DNA of 64,000 nt from NCBI RefSeq assembly GCF_002283555.1, contig NZ_MVOI01000006.1, positions 638,040 to 702,039 of the forward strand. Direction: 5' to 3'. The translations under genes were made by a program, and so were the position numbers. The notes under the pieces were generated by a model. It saw only the letters and a program-made list of their open reading frames with translations, was not told the origin of the DNA and ran no database searches. This document shows positions 37,230-45,161 of this stretch, piece by piece (position 1 is the first letter of the stretch; every line of letters starts with the position of its first letter). Origin of the DNA: Rubrivirga sp. SAORIC476 (lineage in GTDB: Bacteria; Bacteroidota; Rhodothermia; Rhodothermales; Rubricoccaceae).

Positions 37230-38906
37230 TCAGGGCGCCGTGCCCGCGCGAGCCGAGTCGGGCGCGAGTGTGAGACGGGCCCGGGGCGGCGAGGCACTCG
37301 GCGTGAGCCGGATGCGGGAGGCGGGGGCGCCCGCTGCGAGCAACCGGGCGCGAGCGTCGCGGACCGCTGCCGTGTCGCCGTCCAGGACGACGCCGAGGCG
37401 GGGGGTGCGGGCGAGCAGCGCTGCCAGCGAGGTCGCCGCTGCCGAGTCGGGCAGCGCGCGAGGGGCCGTCACGATGGCGCGAGCCGAGGCCTGTCCGGGA
37501 TCCAGCTGGAGCGCTTGCGCGGCCTGTCGGGCGAGGAGTTGCTCCGCCTCGGGCGGTAGGCGGCGGGCGGCGGCGTAGACGACGGTGAGCGTTGGCTGTC
37601 CGTCCGTCGACACGTCGAGGGCGCCCTCGACGACCTGGACGCCGTCGGGCAGGGCGAGGGCGCCCAGCACCCCCGCCAGCCGACCGCGGACGGACGCCAG
37701 CGTCGCCGCCACCGAGGCGGGCTCGGTGGTCTGCGGCACCGACCGCACGGCGGGCCGCTCCGGGAGCGCGTTGGCGAATGCCGCCAGGTCGCCGGAGGAC
37801 GCCAGGATCTGCTCCAGCACGAGCGTCACTGGCTCCCCGGCCTCCTCGCTCGCCTGGGCGGCGAGTTCGGACTCGGCCGCGTCCGGGATCCACGCCTCCG
37901 TCGCTACGCGCAGCCGGGCGGACGACCCCGCCTCGCCGTAGGTGACCTCGCGGTCGATGACGTACGCATCCTCGGCGCGAAGCTGGGCCTCGACGGCGTC
38001 GATCGCCTGGCTCACCCGCCCCTCGCGGACGACCTGCCGCAGCGACGAGGTCAGCGGGACGGCCACGGCGGCCATGAACGCCACCACCAGCAGCACGCGG
38101 GCGAGCGGGCTCGCCAGGCCCGGCAGCCGGTTTAGCCAGCGCGCCTCGTGGATGCGCGCCGCGAAGCCCGTCGAGCCCTCCGTGGCGTGCCACGCGCTTG
38201 CCGCCTTCACCACGGGCGCCCGGTGCATTCCGATGATGAGGAACACCAGCATCCCGCTCAGGACGATGCCCGCCAGGTTCGCCCCGAACAACAGCAGCGC
38301 GCCCTTCGCAATGGCCACCTTGCCGATGGCGATCCCGAATCCCGCCACCCCGAGCGGCGGTACCAGCGCCACGGCCACGGCCACGCCCGGGATGGACGCC
38401 GAGAGCCGCGCCTCGCGCGACGCCGTTACGACGGCACCCGCCAGGCCCGAGAACACCGCGATGCCCAGGTCGAGCGTCGTCGGGCGCGTCCGGCTGGCGA
38501 TTTCGTCGGTCACGCTGTGGAACGGCAGCAGCACCGTCAGCAGGGCGGCCAGCGCGACGATGCCCGCGGCGCCCAGCAGGATCGTCGCGGCGGTCTGCAC
38601 GAACAGTCGCCCATCGCCGACGGCGAGGGCCAGCGACAGGCCTAGCAGCGGGCCCAGCAAAGGCGCCACCAGCATCGCCCCGATGACGACGGCGGTCGAG
38701 TTGAGCACGAGCCCCAGCGTGGCGATGGCCCCCGAGAGGAGCAGCACGAGCCAGAACGGCAGGTCCGTGTCGGTGGCCGCCTCGGCGGTCTCGCGGTACA
38801 GCGCCGGACGGTCCCAGGTGCGGAGGCCGAAGTGGCGCCGCGCGGCCTCCTCCATCGGCGAGTCGTCGTCGGAGGCCTCGGCGAGGACCGGGTCGTCGGT
38901 GGGCAT
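37230..38906 (-). CDS. DUF389-family multi-pass membrane protein
   Basis: 558 residues. After a short acidic N-terminus comes a membrane region with about seven hydrophobic helices (50-250): LPFWLVLLLSGAIATLGLVLNSTAVVIGAMLVAPLLGPLLGLSLAL, then IPGVAVAVALVPPLGVAGFGIAIG. This matches the DUF389 (TIGR00341/TIGR00271) core. Another hydrophobic segment (near 275) precedes a 270-residue C-terminal soluble region with OsmY/BON-like alternation (VEAQLRAEDAYVIDREVTYGEAG, LPDGVQVVEGALDVSTDGQ). The function of DUF389 proteins is unknown. It is the last gene of a leftward series and follows sixA by 52 bases. Confidence 0.85.
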   Translation of the reverse strand: MPTDDPVLAEASDDDSPMEEAARRHFGLRTWDRPALYRETAEAATDTDLPFWLVLLLSGAIATLGLVLNSTAVVIGAMLVAPLLGPLLGLSLALAVGDGRLFVQTAATILLGAAGIVALAALLTVLLPFHSVTDEIASRTRPTTLDLGIAVFSGLAGAVVTASREARLSASIPGVAVAVALVPPLGVAGFGIAIGKVAIAKGALLLFGANLAGIVLSGMLVFLIIGMHRAPVVKAASAWHATEGSTGFAARIHEARWLNRLPGLASPLARVLLVVAFMAAVAVPLTSSLRQVVREGRVSQAIDAVEAQLRAEDAYVIDREVTYGEAGSSARLRVATEAWIPDAAESELAAQASEEAGEPVTLVLEQILASSGDLAAFANALPERPAVRSVPQTTEPASVAATLASVRGRLAGVLGALALPDGVQVVEGALDVSTDGQPTLTVVYAAARRLPPEAEQLLARQAAQALQLDPGQASARAIVTAPRALPDSAAATSLAALLARTPRLGVVLDGDTAAVRDARARLLAAGAPASRIRLTPSASPPRARLTLAPDSARAGTAP

Positions 38907-38958: not shown

Positions 38959-39612
38959 CTAGGCCTCCGGCTGATCGGTCGCGTCCACGCCGCCGCGAGG
39001 CAGCGAGGCCGGGCGGAGGGGCTTCGCCTTGGGGGCCGCCGCCTTCTCCGCCTGCGCGACGGCCTTCTGGCGTGCCTCGATGGCCTTGTCGATCGTCTTC
39101 TTCAGCTTGCGATACGCGTTGGGCCGGAGGTCGGACGGAGAGAGCAGCCCGGACAGGACGCCGCGGCCCGGCGCCACGTCCGCCCAGCGCTCGACCTCCA
39201 GGCTGATGCGCGCCACGGTCGCGGTCTTCATCTCGATGCGCCCGCCGCCGATGAGCAGCGACACGAGCGCGCTCCACGTCGGCTGATGGCCCACCACGAT
39301 GAGCGTGTCGGCGTCGTCGTCCTCGGCCTGGATCTCGCGGAGAACGGCCTCCGGGCTGGCCTCGTAGAGGGCGTCGGTGACGCGGGCCGGCCCGGTCCAC
39401 CCCCCTGCCTCGGCCGCCGTGGCGAGCGTCTCACGAGCCCGCACGGCCGACGACGTGAGGGCGCGGTCGGGCACGACGCGCGCCGTCGTCAGGAAGCGAC
39501 CCATCTTGCGGGCTCCCTTCTGGCCGCGCGTGGCAAGCGGCCGGGCATGGTCGTCCCCGAAGTCGACGTCCCAGTCGGACTTGGCGTGGCGGAGGATGAG
39601 GAGGGTCTTCAT
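38959..39612 (-). CDS. sixA: SixA-type phosphohistidine phosphatase with basic C-terminal tail
   Basis: 217 residues from the ATG at 39612. The histidine-phosphatase signature LILRHAKSDWD (catalytic RH near residue 7) is followed by the SixA-typical DHARPLATRG, TSSAVRARET and the second catalytic His in VVGHQPTW. About 60 C-terminal residues (RKLKKTIDKAIEARQ, then AEKAAAPKAK) extend beyond the usual SixA length of about 160 and are rich in Lys and Ala, perhaps an oligomerisation or nucleic-acid-binding tail (inference). SixA removes phosphate from phosphohistidine in phosphotransfer proteins. The large hybrid kinase nearby is one conceivable partner. A TATCCTTCG element lies 37 bases upstream. 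Confidence 0.88.
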   Translation of the reverse strand: MKTLLILRHAKSDWDVDFGDDHARPLATRGQKGARKMGRFLTTARVVPDRALTSSAVRARETLATAAEAGGWTGPARVTDALYEASPEAVLREIQAEDDDADTLIVVGHQPTWSALVSLLIGGGRIEMKTATVARISLEVERWADVAPGRGVLSGLLSPSDLRPNAYRKLKKTIDKAIEARQKAVAQAEKAAAPKAKPLRPASLPRGGVDATDQPEA

Positions 39613-39640
39613 GAGCGACGGAAGGGGCCGGGAACGGCGC

Positions 39641-39649
39641 CGAAGGATA
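39641..39649 (-). promoter_or_regulatory. Candidate -7 box for sixA (TATCCTTCG)
   Basis: Minus-strand TATCCTTCG, 37 bases before the ATG at 39612, one base longer between TA and TTCG than the other boxes. Confidence 0.25.
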
Positions 39650-39695
39650 GGGGCTCCCAGGGTGGGAGGCGAACCGCACCGCACCTGCGCGGAGC

Positions 39696-40523
39696 TTACG
39701 GGAGGATGCCCGGGACGGTCGTCGTGCCTCCCGAGGGGGGCACCGTCGTGAGGGCCGTCCCGCTGGGGTCGAAGAGGGCCGCGTACGTGAACACGATGAT
39801 GAAGCCGATCACGCCGACGACCAGCGCGACCAGGAACGCGCTGTACGACCGCTGGAGCATCTCGTACTTCTTCTGGAGCACGCTCCCGACGCCGTAGATG
39901 TCCTTCATCATCATCTCGTAGGTCCGGGTCGAGTCCATCACGACCTCTTTGAGCGTGTCGACGAACTGGCTCTCGTTCATGTGGCTGAAGTTGCCGAAGA
40001 AGAGCAGGTTCTTGCGCTTCGTGAGCACTTCCTCGGGCGTGACGACGGTGCTCTGGACGCGCGGCCGGGCGGCGAGCACGGCGAACACGAGCGAGATCAG
40101 GCAGCCCAGCAGGAACAGCGACGTCGGGATCAGGAGCCAGGGGTTCTTCTCGATGCCCGGCGCGATCGACGCGATCATGATGGACACGATCAGGCCGTTG
40201 ATCGAGATCATGATGTTGGCCTTCGCATCGGCCAGCGACGAGAGGTCCATGTTGACCCGGTAGCTGGTCCGGAACAGGGTCTCGATGCCGCGCTTGGTGC
40301 CGAGCTCGGCGAGCGCCTGGTCGGCCGCCGAGACGGCGCCGTCCGACGGGCCGACGGCGGTCATCTCCTTGGTCTTCTTTTTCTTCTTGTGCGGCGCGTC
40401 GTCGGGGGCGACCGGCACGTCGCGCGCCCCGGCCACCTGGCTCATGTCCACGGTGGCGCCCGCGGCAGGCATGCCGTCACCGGCGTCGTCGGCGACGGAA
40501 TCGGGAGTGGGGGAGGGGTCCAT
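39696..40523 (-). CDS. Pycsar-effector-like (DUF5706/PycTM-type) membrane protein
   Basis: 275 residues. Residues 1-65 are polar and look disordered, with a lysine run (HKKKKKTKEM). The conserved core follows: ADAKANIMISINGLIVSIMIASI (transmembrane), PWLLIPTSLFLLGCLISLVFAVLAARPR (transmembrane), then RKNLLFFGNFSHMNESQFVD and a third membrane segment near 230-250 (AFLVALVVGVIGFIIVFTY). I match this from memory to the DUF5706 or Pycsar-effector family, whose characterised members respond to cyclic pyrimidine nucleotides and disrupt membranes during phage infection. No pyrimidine cyclase is nearby, so the role here is uncertain. It follows the phosphoesterase-like/barrel gene by 46 bases on the same strand. 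Confidence 0.78.
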   Translation of the reverse strand: MDPSPTPDSVADDAGDGMPAAGATVDMSQVAGARDVPVAPDDAPHKKKKKTKEMTAVGPSDGAVSAADQALAELGTKRGIETLFRTSYRVNMDLSSLADAKANIMISINGLIVSIMIASIAPGIEKNPWLLIPTSLFLLGCLISLVFAVLAARPRVQSTVVTPEEVLTKRKNLLFFGNFSHMNESQFVDTLKEVVMDSTRTYEMMMKDIYGVGSVLQKKYEMLQRSYSAFLVALVVGVIGFIIVFTYAALFDPSGTALTTVPPSGGTTTVPGILP

Positions 40524-40569: not shown

Positions 40570-43500
40570 TCAGTAGGCGAAGCCGACGCCGAAGGTGAAC
40601 AGCGTCGCCTCGTCGGAGGCGCCGACGGTGAGGTTGACGACGGCGGCGTCGAGGACGCCGATCCACAGGCCGCCGCCGTAACCGAGCTGGAGGTCGTCGC
40701 TGCTGAAAGTCGGGGTCAACTGGAACGGAGTGAGTGGCGGGACGCAGTCGCCGGTGATGCCGCAGTTCACGTACCGGTTGTCCCAGACGCGGCCGGCGTC
40801 GACGAAGCCGAGGGCGCCGACCTGGAGCGGCAGCACGTAGGCGTCGACGTTGAACAGCTTCATCCGCGCCTCGGCCGAGGCCGACGCGGCCGTCCGACCG
40901 GTGAACCGCTCGCGGCGGTACCCGCGGACCGTGCCCGGCCCGCCGAGCACGGCGCCGTCGAAAAACGGGAAGTCGCCGATGCGGTGCTCGGCACCGGCGC
41001 GGAGGGCCAGCGTGAGCTGCGGCGCGAGGCGGACCGGGATGTAGGCGACCGCTTCGCCGCCGACGGTGCCGTACGTGTCGGCGGGGCCGGTCAGCCCGGC
41101 GAAGACCGAGCCTTCGGCCATCACCCGGAGGCCCTGGAAGGGATTCGGGCCGAGCGACGCCGTCGACGCCTCCAGGCGCCCGAAGCCGCCCGCATGCGCC
41201 TGCGCCTCGAACGACGCGTCGGGGAGCTGCGAGAGGGGCGTCGGGCCATCGTCTGGCAGAATCGCGAGCTCGCCTCGCGAGGCGTCCGCGAAGCGGGCCG
41301 TCGGGCCGACGATGAGCCGGAGGCCCTGGCCCAGCGGCGTCCCGAAGCCCGCCCGTGCACGGACCTGCGCGAGGTCCACGCGGGCGAGGTCGCCGGGGAT
41401 GTTCCGCGAGCCGTTGCCGAGGCCGTAGAAGTTGCGCGCGTAGCGCGGCGTCGATGCGAAGGCGTCCACGTCGAGGTCGAACGCGCCGACGGCCTTCTTC
41501 ATCCGCCCCGTGTAGGAGCCCGCGACCCCGCTCGTGGTCGTGGCGTAGTTCACCGAGAGCGTGTGCGTCGCGGCGAACGGGCGGAGCCGGAAGCCAGGCA
41601 CGTTCCACACGGCCGTCGCCCCGATCAGGACGCCGTCGGTGGCGCGGTAGCCCGCGGTGGGGAACAGCTTGCGGTCGCCGAGCACGTGCTCAGTCTCGTC
41701 GTAGCGGTTCACGTCGGGGTCGTCGGAGCGCTGGTCCTCGACGCGGGGGCCGAGGTCGGAGAGGGTGGCGCCGTCGGGCGTGTCGTAGATGGCGACGTGG
41801 CCGGCGGGGGCGATGATCTCGTCGTCGCCGGCCCCCGCGATCACGCGGAGCGCGATCCGGTCCGGCCCCTCGCCGGTCAGGCGGAACACGTCGCGCCCGG
41901 CGAAGCCGTACAGGCGCACCTCCTCGGTCTCCGACGGCAGGAACTCGCGGCGGTAGAGCTCGCGCCCGTCCTCGCCGCCCTTGTACGAGCGGACGGTGAC
42001 GGTGAGCCGCCCGTCGGGGGAACGCACGGCGTCGAAGGCCTCCCGCTCGTCGCTGCCCAGCACGTCGACGGTGTGGGCCTGGAGGTCGTAGTACTCCTGT
42101 GCCATCTCGGCCAGGCGGTCTCGGCGCCCGCGGAGCACGGTCGTCCAGTAGTCTCCCACCTCGGCATAGATGGGCTCCGGAAGGGCGCGGACGGCGCGGT
42201 CGATGGCAGCGTCGGTGAGCGACGCCTGGAGGCTGGAGATGGCGGCCTCCCACTCGGCCGCGTCGAGGGCGTTGAGGAAGCGCCGGTCCTGGTAGAAGCC
42301 GTTCTGCATCAGCCCGCGGACGCTCTTGCTCTGCTCCCCGAGCCCGTTCAGGCGACGGTCGTAGAACTTCTGCAGCGGGTACTGGAGCAGCCCGCCGATG
42401 TCGTAGAGCGCGAAGTCGCGGTCGCGGGCGATGGGGCGGTAGATCTTGCCCTTGGTGGAGTCCTCGCCGGTGAGCGTCGGGTCCAGGTCGCCGGGCTCGA
42501 AGGCCGCCCAGCGCCACTGGTCGGCGTGGCGGTCCCAGTCGGCGATGAACAGGTCGAAGAGGCGCGCCCGGAGGAAGGCCTCCTGGTCGACGCGGTGGTC
42601 CTGGTCCTCGCGCAGGTCCTCGCGGAGGTTGGCCGACGACCCCACGTCGTACATGCCTTCGAAGCCGGGCACGTCCGACATGTCGTCGTCGGGGCGGACC
42701 TCGAAGAGGGCCAGCTTGTCGCCGAACGTCTCGCGGTAGCGCCCGAGGCGGGGGTCGTCGGGGATGTAGACGATCTCGGGCGACGGCTGGGCGACGCCTG
42801 CGGCGCGGGCCAGCGGCGCGGCCACGAGCGAGGCGTACGGGTTCATGGCCGCGCGGAGCTCCAGCACGAGGTCGCCCACGAGGCCGTCGCGGAGTTCGTA
42901 GGGCACCTGGGAGAGGCCGCTCTTCTCCAGCAGGCGGAGGCCGTACTCGTGGCCGTCGCCGCCGAGCAGGCGGAGGGAGGTCGTCTGCTGGCCACCGCCC
43001 ATCTTGACCGGCTCCAGCCCGCCGAACTCGGTGCCGAGGTCGATGGTGCGGAACGCGACTGGCGTCTTCCAGGAGTCGCGGTAGTTGCGGCCCAAGAGGG
43101 CGCGCGTCAGGCGGTCGTTCTGGAACCGGTCCGTCTGGAAGTCCTCATCGGCGGCGCGGGTCACGACGGCGTCGGTGTCCGGCAGATCGGCCGGGTCGAT
43201 GGCGTCGGGCAGGCGGTCCGGCACGAGTTCGGCGTTGGGGCCGGAGATCTCGGCGCGGAAGACGACCTGCGGCGTGCCCGCGCCATCCACCTCGACGGTC
43301 TCGGTCCAGAGGCGGCCGTCGGCGAAGTAGACGAGGCGCTGGTAGCCGGGCTGGGACGACACGTACTGCGCGCCGCCCGCGCCCGCCCGCGCCGTCTCGC
43401 CGCCGCCCGTGCCGGACACGAGGTGGGTCTGCGCCCGGAGCGTGTTGATGACATCGTCGTAGGTCTGGAGGATGCGGTCATGCGAAGCCGCCCAGACGAG

Positions 43501-44328
43501 GCCGTTGTGGAGGCCCGCCACGCGCCCGAGCGAGGTCCGCAGCGCGCGGTAGCGAGGCGAGGCGAGGTCCTGCGCGCTGAAGCCGACCGTCCGCGCCGCG
43601 AGGCCCGTGAGCGGGTCGCCGCGGAAGCCGCCATAGGGCCCGCGCGAGATGAGCGGGTGGTGAGCCAGCACCACGATCCGGTCGTCGTCGCGGTCGAGCA
43701 CGATCTGCTCCAGGACGCGCGTCACGTCGCCCGGCGTGCGGATGTCCTGGTCTTCCGCCTCGCCGTCGGGCCGGTCGGCCGCGTCGACGAGCCACCACGC
43801 GGTGTCGAGGGCGATCAGCCGGAGGCCCTCCGCGGGCGACGACTCGCGCGGGCCGCCCGCCTGGTCTCCCGGCGTCAGCACGTCGGTGTCGAAGGCGTCG
43901 TCCAGAATGTCTTCGAGGCGCTTGAGGCCGTCCTCGCCCTGGCGCCAGTCTCGGTCGCCGGGGACCACGATCACATCCCCCTGCACGCCGTCGAGCGCGG
44001 CGATGAGGGCGCGCACAGGCGCCTCGGCTGCGGCGCGGGCCGGGTCGTCGTCGGCCGGGATGCCGTCGGCGGTCACGTCGCCCAGGAGGGCGATGGTGGC
44101 GTTCTCGCCCGCGGCGCGGGCGTCGGTGGCGAAGGCGCGCAGGACGGCCTCGGAGCCACCGTCGGCGAGGTCGCCGGTGTTGCCGGTCAGGAACACGCGG
44201 TGCGCGATCTCACCGCCGGGCAGCGGCGGCACGGGCTCGGCCCGGCGCTCAGGGGCGACGTAGGTGGCGGTCGTCGCACACCCGCCGACGAGGGCGAGGA
44301 GCGTGAGGAGAGGAAGCAGTCGGCGCAT
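40570..44328 (-). CDS. Giant envelope protein: metallophosphoesterase-like, kinase-like middle and C-terminal beta-barrel
   Basis: 1252 residues. The lipoprotein signal MRRLLPLLTLLALVGGC has its Cys at residue 17. Residues 42-300 follow the calcineurin-like phosphoesterase order, but several metal-binding positions look altered: GNTGD (49-53), GDVTADG (83-89), GDRDW (124-128) where GNHDW is usual, HHPLIS (223-228), SHDR (282-285) where GHDH is usual. Residues 430-700 contain KMGGGQQTTSLRL, then DWDRHADQW (597-605) and ARDRD (634-638), recalling CotH/HipA-like kinase folds. From about 860 to the end lies an outer-membrane barrel of the BamA/TamA surface-antigen type (GPGTVRGYRRERF, terminal FTFGVGFAY). 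It is probably anchored in the outer membrane. Confidence 0.82.
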   Translation of the reverse strand: MRRLLPLLTLLALVGGCATTATYVAPERRAEPVPPLPGGEIAHRVFLTGNTGDLADGGSEAVLRAFATDARAAGENATIALLGDVTADGIPADDDPARAAAEAPVRALIAALDGVQGDVIVVPGDRDWRQGEDGLKRLEDILDDAFDTDVLTPGDQAGGPRESSPAEGLRLIALDTAWWLVDAADRPDGEAEDQDIRTPGDVTRVLEQIVLDRDDDRIVVLAHHPLISRGPYGGFRGDPLTGLAARTVGFSAQDLASPRYRALRTSLGRVAGLHNGLVWAASHDRILQTYDDVINTLRAQTHLVSGTGGGETARAGAGGAQYVSSQPGYQRLVYFADGRLWTETVEVDGAGTPQVVFRAEISGPNAELVPDRLPDAIDPADLPDTDAVVTRAADEDFQTDRFQNDRLTRALLGRNYRDSWKTPVAFRTIDLGTEFGGLEPVKMGGGQQTTSLRLLGGDGHEYGLRLLEKSGLSQVPYELRDGLVGDLVLELRAAMNPYASLVAAPLARAAGVAQPSPEIVYIPDDPRLGRYRETFGDKLALFEVRPDDDMSDVPGFEGMYDVGSSANLREDLREDQDHRVDQEAFLRARLFDLFIADWDRHADQWRWAAFEPGDLDPTLTGEDSTKGKIYRPIARDRDFALYDIGGLLQYPLQKFYDRRLNGLGEQSKSVRGLMQNGFYQDRRFLNALDAAEWEAAISSLQASLTDAAIDRAVRALPEPIYAEVGDYWTTVLRGRRDRLAEMAQEYYDLQAHTVDVLGSDEREAFDAVRSPDGRLTVTVRSYKGGEDGRELYRREFLPSETEEVRLYGFAGRDVFRLTGEGPDRIALRVIAGAGDDEIIAPAGHVAIYDTPDGATLSDLGPRVEDQRSDDPDVNRYDETEHVLGDRKLFPTAGYRATDGVLIGATAVWNVPGFRLRPFAATHTLSVNYATTTSGVAGSYTGRMKKAVGAFDLDVDAFASTPRYARNFYGLGNGSRNIPGDLARVDLAQVRARAGFGTPLGQGLRLIVGPTARFADASRGELAILPDDGPTPLSQLPDASFEAQAHAGGFGRLEASTASLGPNPFQGLRVMAEGSVFAGLTGPADTYGTVGGEAVAYIPVRLAPQLTLALRAGAEHRIGDFPFFDGAVLGGPGTVRGYRRERFTGRTAASASAEARMKLFNVDAYVLPLQVGALGFVDAGRVWDNRYVNCGITGDCVPPLTPFQLTPTFSSDDLQLGYGGGLWIGVLDAAVVNLTVGASDEATLFTFGVGFAY

Positions 44329-44333
44329 GCAGC

Positions 44334-45161
44334 CTAGCGGGTGGGAGCGAAGCGGAGGAGAGTGCCGGGACCGGTGGTCCCCTCACTGGAGATGTACAGC
44401 GTGCCGTCGGCCGCGAAGGCGATGCCCTCGGGCTGGGGCGCGGCGTCGAGGTGGAGGTCGGCGACGCCGAGCAGCGTGCCGTCGGGGTCGAGAACGGCGA
44501 TGGCGCGGCGAACGGACGAGAGCACGTAGATCTGCCCCGTCGCCGGGTGAATCGCGAGCGCGGACGGCCGGAAGCGAAGGTCGGTGTCGACGGCGGCCTG
44601 GTCGAGGAGGTAGACCGGCCGCTCGGCCATCGTCTCGGTGGCGAGGTCGAAGGCGTAGATCGCGCGGACGTCGTCGAGGTCGTGGCCGGGCCACTCCTTG
44701 CAAGCGACGAGGAGGCGGTGATTGGCCGCATCGTAGGCCAGCCCCTCGGTGTCGTTGCGGCTCTTGAGCGGCGTCTCGACCTTGCGGGCGGTGGGGGTGC
44801 CGGTCGAGTCGCGGGCCAGGCGGAACAGGTCGCCGTCGCTGCGGAGCGCCCAGACGGCGTCGCCTGCCAGTTCGAGTCCCTCGAAGTCGCCGGCGCCGTC
44901 GAACACGAGCCGGTCGACGACGGCACCGGTCGCGGGGTGGATCTCGTAGAGCGTCCCGGTCTCGTCCTGGAGGGTGCCCAGCCGGCCGCTCGGGAGGACC
45001 GTCAGCGCGGATGTTTCCGTCAGCTCGCCCGACAGAGCGATCACGGCGTCGGGCGCGTCGAGGCGGTAGGGGAGGACGTCGGGCTGCTCGGGCCCTGGCG
45101 CAGTGCGGGTGGCGTCGGCGCAGGATCCGAGAGCGAGGAGGGCGAACAGAACGAAGCGCAT
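44334..45161 (-). CDS. SdiA-regulated-family beta-propeller lipoprotein
   Basis: 275 residues. The lipoprotein-like signal MRFVLFALLALGSC has its lipobox Cys at residue 14. Repeated propeller blades are visible: SALTVLPSGRLGTLQDETGTLYEIHPATG, DFEGLELAGDAVWALRSDGDLFRL, NDTEGLAYDAANHRLLVACKE, RPSALAIHPATGQIYVLSS and QPEGIAFAADGTLYISSEG. This pattern and length match the SdiA-regulated family of periplasmic proteins, whose function is unknown. It lies 5 bases upstream of the 1252-residue gene, so the two are almost certainly cotranscribed. It is divergent from yebC, with a 234-base gap that shows no other gene. Confidence 0.85.
   Translation of the reverse strand: MRFVLFALLALGSCADATRTAPGPEQPDVLPYRLDAPDAVIALSGELTETSALTVLPSGRLGTLQDETGTLYEIHPATGAVVDRLVFDGAGDFEGLELAGDAVWALRSDGDLFRLARDSTGTPTARKVETPLKSRNDTEGLAYDAANHRLLVACKEWPGHDLDDVRAIYAFDLATETMAERPVYLLDQAAVDTDLRFRPSALAIHPATGQIYVLSSVRRAIAVLDPDGTLLGVADLHLDAAPQPEGIAFAADGTLYISSEGTTGPGTLLRFAPTR

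Follow-up and report, generated by a model that had tools for sequence, protein, structure and literature searches.

A predicted outer-membrane lipoprotein of Rubrivirga with a kinase-fold domain between a phosphatase-shaped part and an Omp85-type barrel

The window, which is the whole 64,000-nucleotide stretch of Rubrivirga sp. SAORIC476 DNA that was analysed, carries at 40570..44328 (-) a gene for a 1252-aa predicted lipoprotein. In this predicted outer-membrane protein a kinase-fold part sits between a phosphatase-shaped part and a barrel, and relatives are found in many bacteria. All features of the window located below lie on the same (-) strand. The protein begins with a lipoprotein signal peptide (44278..44328) whose lipobox, LVGG followed by C17, was recognised by eye and follows a pattern shared by the same-genus relatives L032 and L033. 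The N-termini of the relatives also appear by eye to be signal peptides, lipoboxes or membrane anchors, although a simple lipobox pattern fits only 38 of 124 fused rows. These sequence signals agree with the initial annotation, which took the protein to be exported. The signal is followed by a purple-acid-phosphatase-fold domain (residues ~41-370, 43219..44208), assigned by AlphaFold2 (AF2) and VIA-align and with degenerate metal-ligand motifs (GNTG, GDVTADG, GDRD, SHDR), and then by the kinase-fold domain (residues 406-745, 42094..43113). A beta-rich connector (residues 746-860, 41749..42093) has strands in the AF2 model and GxGxD-type repeats in its sequence, of which FAGRDVF and GAGDDE look calcium-binding. 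The C-terminal part (residues 861-1252, 40573..41748) is an Omp85-type outer-membrane barrel (PF01103, E 1e-11), which bears out the proposed fusion to a barrel and places the protein in the Omp85 superfamily through its PF01103 barrel domain.

Five same-strand frames, encoding a propeller, the kinase protein, PycTM, His_Phos_1 and DUF389, are clustered in the window with gaps of 5-52 bp. The adjacent upstream gene, at a 5-bp gap, encodes a SdiA-regulated or phytase-like propeller (44334..45161), for which the SdiA-regulated (PF06977, E 2.8e-17) and phytase-like esterase (PF13449, E 6.3e-8) models are both above cut-off. Next downstream, after 46 bp, is a PycTM membrane protein (39696..40523; PF18967, E 2e-28), followed by a His_Phos_1 phosphatase (38959..39684; PF00300, E 9.5e-11) of SixA-like type and a DUF389 protein (37230..38906; PF04087, E 3.5e-34). 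Counted in 61 genomes, one per genus, PycTM and the kinase gene are no more than 8 kb apart in 40 of the 56 genomes having both, and PPK1 is within 8 kb in 14 of 57 and within 15 kb in 20 of 57; chance would give 0.37 (PycTM) and 0.47 (PPK1) pairs, assuming 4.2-Mb genomes. For the SdiA-regulated gene the 8-kb count is 21 of 35 genomes. The neighbour clusters include shadow ORFs, and only clusters with a Pfam-named representative were used. Shared descent contributes to these counts, yet gene orders and strands vary. PycTM is a Pycsar effector-like membrane protein, in many genomes encoded by a longer frame that also has an HD domain, and its frequent linkage across the phylum is a hint that such copies may act outside phage defence. 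PPK1 lies near the kinase gene in distant lineages (L168, L173, L140, L174 and others, with titles that include Gemmatimonadetes and Ignavibacteriae). In the window's own genome PPK1 is on contig C2 and the kinase gene on C6. The window's family includes eight genomes with both genes, several of them in many contigs, and in none do the two stand on one contig at a distance of up to 8 kb.

The initial annotation had read the middle of this protein as a kinase-like domain because of four short strings, and all four are in frame in the 1252-aa ORF at the place and in the order given: KMGGGQQTTSLRL starts at residue 442, LRLLEK is residues 464-469, DWDRHADQW is residues 597-605 and RPIARDRD is residues 631-638. 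The domain is indeed present, and its extent, first put at 42220-43040, is somewhat longer, about 42094-43113. The AF2 model of residues 385-745 (83 sequences; model residue = window residue minus 384) has a pLDDT of 95 and a pTM of 0.93 and is a two-lobed atypical kinase, so that structure prediction, proposed as a check, returned the kinase lobes with confidence, and the outcome that would have refuted the idea, a fold lacking them, did not occur. All 21 Foldseek matches in the PDB at E<=1e-3 are kinases by title, including CotH, CtkA, HipA, HipT, PI4KIIalpha and RIO2, and PI4KIIalpha, CtkA and CotH again match the kinase part when residues 36-860 are modelled together (pLDDT 88.9, pTM 0.79). 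The TM-scores over the query are low, 0.30-0.42 for the 21 best PDB matches, so the domain as modelled is distant from every solved kinase. In VIA-align, CotH (Z 14.8, rmsd 4.1, 251 aligned) is tied with PI4KIIbeta (Z 14.7, rmsd 4.9, 254 aligned), followed by CtkA (Z 14.0, rmsd 4.6, 234 aligned), HipA (Z 11.7, rmsd 4.5, 224 aligned), FAM20A (Z 10.7, rmsd 5.2, 231 aligned) and actin-fragmin kinase (Z 10.6, rmsd 4.1, 222 aligned). Judged from the model, the middle domain almost certainly has a kinase fold, and the kinase-like interpretation is supported.

The model also places the motifs in the slots expected of the protein-kinase-like fold superfamily. The glycine-rich loop MGGGQQTTS (residues 443-451, 42976..43002) lies between the N-lobe strands at model positions 54-60 and 67-72. 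R465 is inside the next, third N-lobe strand (model 77-82) and K469 is three residues past its end, and the two are candidate nucleotide-binding bases (42922..42936). E490 (42859..42861) is the acidic residue of the following helix (model 99-110), which is in the alpha-C position. The catalytic loop DWDRHADQWRW (residues 597-607, 42508..42540) comes after a helix (model 198-210), and the metal-binding loop PIARDRDFAL (residues 632-641, 42406..42435), the DFG equivalent, comes after a strand (model 245-250). Glycine-rich loop, alpha-C acidic residue, catalytic Asp loop and metal-binding Asp loop are thus predicted in the standard kinase order that had been claimed for the strings.

Conservation agrees with these assignments. 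Among 57 non-redundant copies, collected by similarity to the window domain and not by motif (the five partial copies L047, L051, L053, L077 and L080 being skipped in the residue counts), G445 is kept in 51/57, Q448 in 48/57, R465 in 50/57, K469 in 53/57, D592 in 56/57, D597 in 55/57, D599 in 50/57, R600 in 55/57, Q604 in 51/57, W607 in 57/57, D636 in 52/57 and D638 in 50/57. Because such near-invariant residues occur in copies found without the motif, the strings are, by their conservation, more than chance. In a larger set of 182 rows (171 distinct domain strings, the window gene being present more than once), R465 is kept in 174, K469 in 178 and an acidic residue at position 490 in 181. E543, which is not among the six scored kinase positions, has been lost in copy L055. 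Alignment A1 holds 53 of the 57 non-redundant copies, omitting L072, L073 and L074, the most divergent, and L078, which has an insert; A2 holds 82 of 86 copies plus the window, and A5 63 of 66 plus the window. In each of the 12 relatives compared (L033 and L096 being near-copies), conservation is highest in the kinase part, ahead of the other two large parts.

The likeness to CotH and HipA, part of the initial annotation, holds for the fold, in which CotH, PI4KII, CtkA and HipA are the best solved matches, and does not extend to family membership by sequence. The middle domain of the window has no Pfam match at E<=1, PF08757 (CotH) included, the barrel being the sole Pfam match in the whole protein (E 1.7e-10); it has no match to PF07804 (HipA_C) and none in an NCBIfam scan. 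It is therefore, by sequence, not a CotH or HipA family member. Of 53 family members, one matches the CotH model (E 1.1e-4) and two HipA_C (best E 0.18); Fam20C has no match in whole-library Pfam scans of the window protein and the 53 members, so that the FAM20 comparison that had been called for yields the fold match to FAM20A and no Pfam family match. The HMM-HMM comparison, also called for, was made with hhalign and puts the motifs in register at weak scores, with a probability of 4.0% (E 0.01, 127 columns) against the CotH alignment and 1.7% (E 0.03) against the HipA alignment, a signal too weak to place the family by profile-profile comparison. A PDB sequence search with the single protein gave no matches, and one with profile A1 gave two EF-hand-protein matches (E 0.052 and 0.24), taken as chance.

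CotH (PF08757; 5jd9, 5jda) is nevertheless a tied top structural match, and the weak hhalign register sets the window DWD and RDRD loops against the CotH catalytic and metal loops, as it sets the RxRLFD..DWDRH stretch against the HipA catalytic loop. The catalytic loops themselves differ, DWDRHxDQWRW in the window family and WD...NNYYLY in CotH (alignment A3). The substitution D228Q abolishes the activity of B. subtilis CotH (PMC7821199). From the CotH alignment and the statistically weak hhalign register, D228 would map to window D599. As a side observation, CotH-family genes (393- and 378-aa frames) lie 1.5 and 2.2 kb from the domain in two genomes (G019:C15:16534-17403 and G070:C10:23802-24674) that are two genera of one family. 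In the window's genome, one CotH-family gene lies at another place on the window's contig (G000:C6:37805-38743, E 1e-55).

Searched with the window segment 42124-43146, the middle domain is present in 111 of 296 genomes sampled from the phylum, or 61 of 140 genera, and in 23 of 40 near-relative genomes, the window's own genome being counted in both sets. The pattern DWDR[HRT]x[DG]QW identifies at least 595 loci in GTDB contigs, of which 80 (L096-L175) were kept; since these were found by a motif pattern, their catalytic loop is conserved by selection, and numbers that leave them out are reported separately. Judged by title, the 80 are mostly Bacteroidota in the wide sense. The other titles are Gemmatimonadetes/Gemmatimonadales (L168, L173), Longimicrobiaceae (L140), Ignavibacteriae (L174), Chlorobiota (L141) and one Deltaproteobacteria MAG (L171).

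The architectures of 181 copies, counted as rows with duplicates and edge-cut copies included, are dominated by phosphatase+kinase+barrel, with a long N-part and more than 400 aa after the kinase (126 rows, 11 of them cut at the locus edge on the N-side and 34 on the C-side). Another 30 are kinase+barrel (two and four cut), 19 have a C-part of 90-250 aa after the kinase in frames of 502-600 aa, mostly with a lipobox by eye, and six have less than 90 aa after the kinase, five of these being about 430 aa long, with what looks by eye like a membrane anchor, and the sixth, L161, cut on its C-side by a contig end. The three parts are also found as separate genes. L064 has three adjacent same-strand genes for a kinase lipoprotein (518 aa), a phosphoesterase (403 aa; PF00149, E 1.6e-6) and a barrel (394 aa; PF01103, E 2e-11) that shares 30% identity with the window barrel across 332 columns (E 4e-24), and L065, from a second genome of that genus, has the same gene order.

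Kinase positions are broken in 14 of the 182 rows, none of which has a fused phosphatase; nine are barrel-linked and five are tandem copies. The nine kinase+barrel copies (860-1031 aa; L071-L076, L080-L082) have eroded kinase motifs and are possible pseudokinases. Two or three tandem kinase-only genes occur at five loci (L061, L062, L134, L155, L163), and at each of the five one copy is D599S beside at least one intact copy. In FAM20A/FAM20C, a copy without the catalytic Asp is paired with an intact one. The tandem copies recall that pair, and by analogy would resemble an active kinase with a pseudokinase partner. The FAM20 proteins are secretory-pathway kinases and so belong, as the window protein would, to the exported world, although their structural match is lower and Pfam gives none.

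Taken together, the middle domain is probably a catalytically competent atypical kinase, exported in an outer-membrane lipoprotein and phosphorylating an envelope substrate in the periplasm. We infer the activity, substrate and donor of the kinase domain as follows. The domain would belong to the PI3/4K-CotH-HipA-FAM20 fold group, the outer-membrane lipoprotein would export it, and the Omp85-type barrel would hold it on the periplasmic side, a location that we infer from Omp85 topology and the lipobox. R465 and K469 would hold the nucleotide together with E490 and the GGGxQT loop, D636/D638 and Q604 may be the metal ligands, and D599 of the DWDRHADQWRW loop is likely the catalytic base. The phosphoryl group would pass to an envelope substrate, most likely a protein and possibly a lipid or glycan. 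In most relatives the phosphatase-fold domain may be an opposing or co-acting hydrolase; in the window organism its site would have decayed and the domain would be a structural part. That the domain is an active phosphotransferase is predicted with good, if incomplete, confidence, and a protein specifically as its substrate is put at somewhat below an even chance.

The main doubt on the kinase reading is the supply of ATP. ATP is not known to be present in the periplasm, which raises the question of the donor. Polyphosphate is a candidate since PPK1 genes are linked in many lineages, and it or another non-ATP donor is considered improbable. A wider proposal joins it to the neighbouring genes: a kinase and a phosphatase, joined in a single outer-membrane protein or made as three adjacent gene products, would form a widespread envelope phosphorylation switch in the periplasm, using a non-ATP donor such as polyphosphate and regulated by the PycTM / nucleotide-cyclase / histidine-phosphatase gene set. 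This is speculative and improbable, and is given less weight because the kinase genes of the window's own family have no PPK1 nearby.

The domain might instead be a lipid, glycan or inositol-phosphate kinase that acts on outer-membrane molecules and not on protein, which we consider somewhat unlikely. PI4KII ties with CotH as the best structural match, and the neighbouring gene has a phytase-like propeller signal. PI3/PI4 kinases have the catalytic pattern DRHxxN, and the window DRHxDQ resembles this pattern as much as it does CotH or HipA. The type II phosphatidylinositol 4-kinases are eukaryotic cytosolic lipid kinases with 11-13% identity to the window domain. However, the protein kinases CotH, CtkA and HipA match about as well or nearly so.

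Another alternative differs from the preferred reading in place and not in chemistry: in a Type-Vd-like secretion of the PlpD kind, the barrel would carry the kinase and phosphatase parts to the cell surface as passengers. The plan of an enzyme part followed by an Omp85 barrel is shared, and Heinz and Lithgow (2014) raise this route for the Omp85 'Metallo' proteins, which they define by PF00149 and whose domain they call a metalloprotease (PMC4104836); the word 'kinase' does not occur in the text of that paper. The window-type proteins are probably this 'Metallo' subfamily or its kin, likened by domain plan, since full-length relatives (L127, L112, L005) carry both PF00149 and PF01103; L090 matches PF00149 only. 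Against surface passengers are the N-terminal lipobox of the window protein and the split kinase, phosphatase and barrel genes, which need no passenger link, and we regard this route as unlikely. Two other proteins were considered as known relatives and set aside on the available text of their sources: Riemerella OMP76, of 710 aa, with nothing there pointing to the window's family, and TamL, a different protein with POTRA domains. A Riemerella metallophosphoesterase is listed as a T9SS effector.

An exported kinase-fold enzyme could also carry out other chemistry, such as AMPylation, glutamylation or another transfer. SelO and SidJ are kinase-fold enzymes with other transfer chemistry, and what the fold and motifs point to is the binding of nucleotide and metal, not a type of reaction. 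The strand-3 residue is unusual too, being Arg (R465) and not Lys; R465 and K469 are both near invariant. The catalytic and metal Asp loops are nonetheless standard in order and identity, and other chemistry seems rather improbable. In the accessible part of the Legionella pan-kinome, the Lani_1194 kinase-fold family is likewise proposed to have Arg in place of the strand-3 Lys; it is a methyltransferase-fused fold that is set apart from the window protein by its description, which mentions no barrel or export, and no such barrel or phosphatase fusion is described among the kinase-fold families listed there (PMC9758233).

A further possibility is a non-catalytic scaffold, in which a pseudokinase and a pseudophosphatase would lend stability to an outer-membrane assembly or transport machine built on the barrel. 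The phosphatase part of the window agrees with this: its metal-ligand motifs are mostly lost, and its fold, shared with purple acid phosphatases (pig 7ov2, Z 27.1, rmsd 3.3, 271 aligned in VIA-align), also matches the Plasmodium anchor protein GAP50 (Z 26.2). Despite that fold it has no match to PF00149. Typical relatives have GDxG, GDNxYPxG, GNHDW, HHP and GHxH, whereas the window has GNTG, GDVTADG, GDRDW, HHP and SHDR, keeping two of five and lacking a complete set of dimetal ligands. Some relatives also have eroded kinase motifs. The six kinase positions (R465, K469, D/E490, D599, Q/N604 and D636 or D638) are, however, intact in all 116 distinct phosphatase-fused rows, in which the window gene is counted twice, while the five phosphatase motifs are complete in 79 and incomplete in 37; among those rows not picked by a catalytic motif, 39 are intact and 16 incomplete. 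In a wider count, all five are kept in 83 of 125 rows. In a FastTree tree built from 158 rows, the phosphatase state is known for 106 and changes at least 11 times, against 27-30 times in five shuffles. From these row counts and the changes on the tree, the kinase site is by sequence retained, whereas loss has struck the phosphatase site repeatedly. A scaffold without catalysis is considered improbable. Chance resemblance of the motifs without a kinase fold, in keeping only with the absence of a Pfam match to the window domain, has a negligible probability given the confident AF2 model and the kinase matches in Foldseek and VIA-align.

The preferred reading, an exported and active kinase, describes an unusual kind of enzyme outside the cytoplasm. 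A literature search in which most subscription papers were outside coverage recognised no published kinase of such a kind. If the domain is active, it would represent a kinase family, one for which neither Pfam nor NCBIfam offers a name when the window domain is scanned, in 111 of the 296 sampled genomes of the phylum, sited in the Gram-negative periplasm and outer membrane, where phosphorylation has been little studied. It would also give the Omp85 'Metallo'-kind proteins a testable function, provide natural pairs of intact and Asp-less copies, and raise the question of the local phosphoryl donor.
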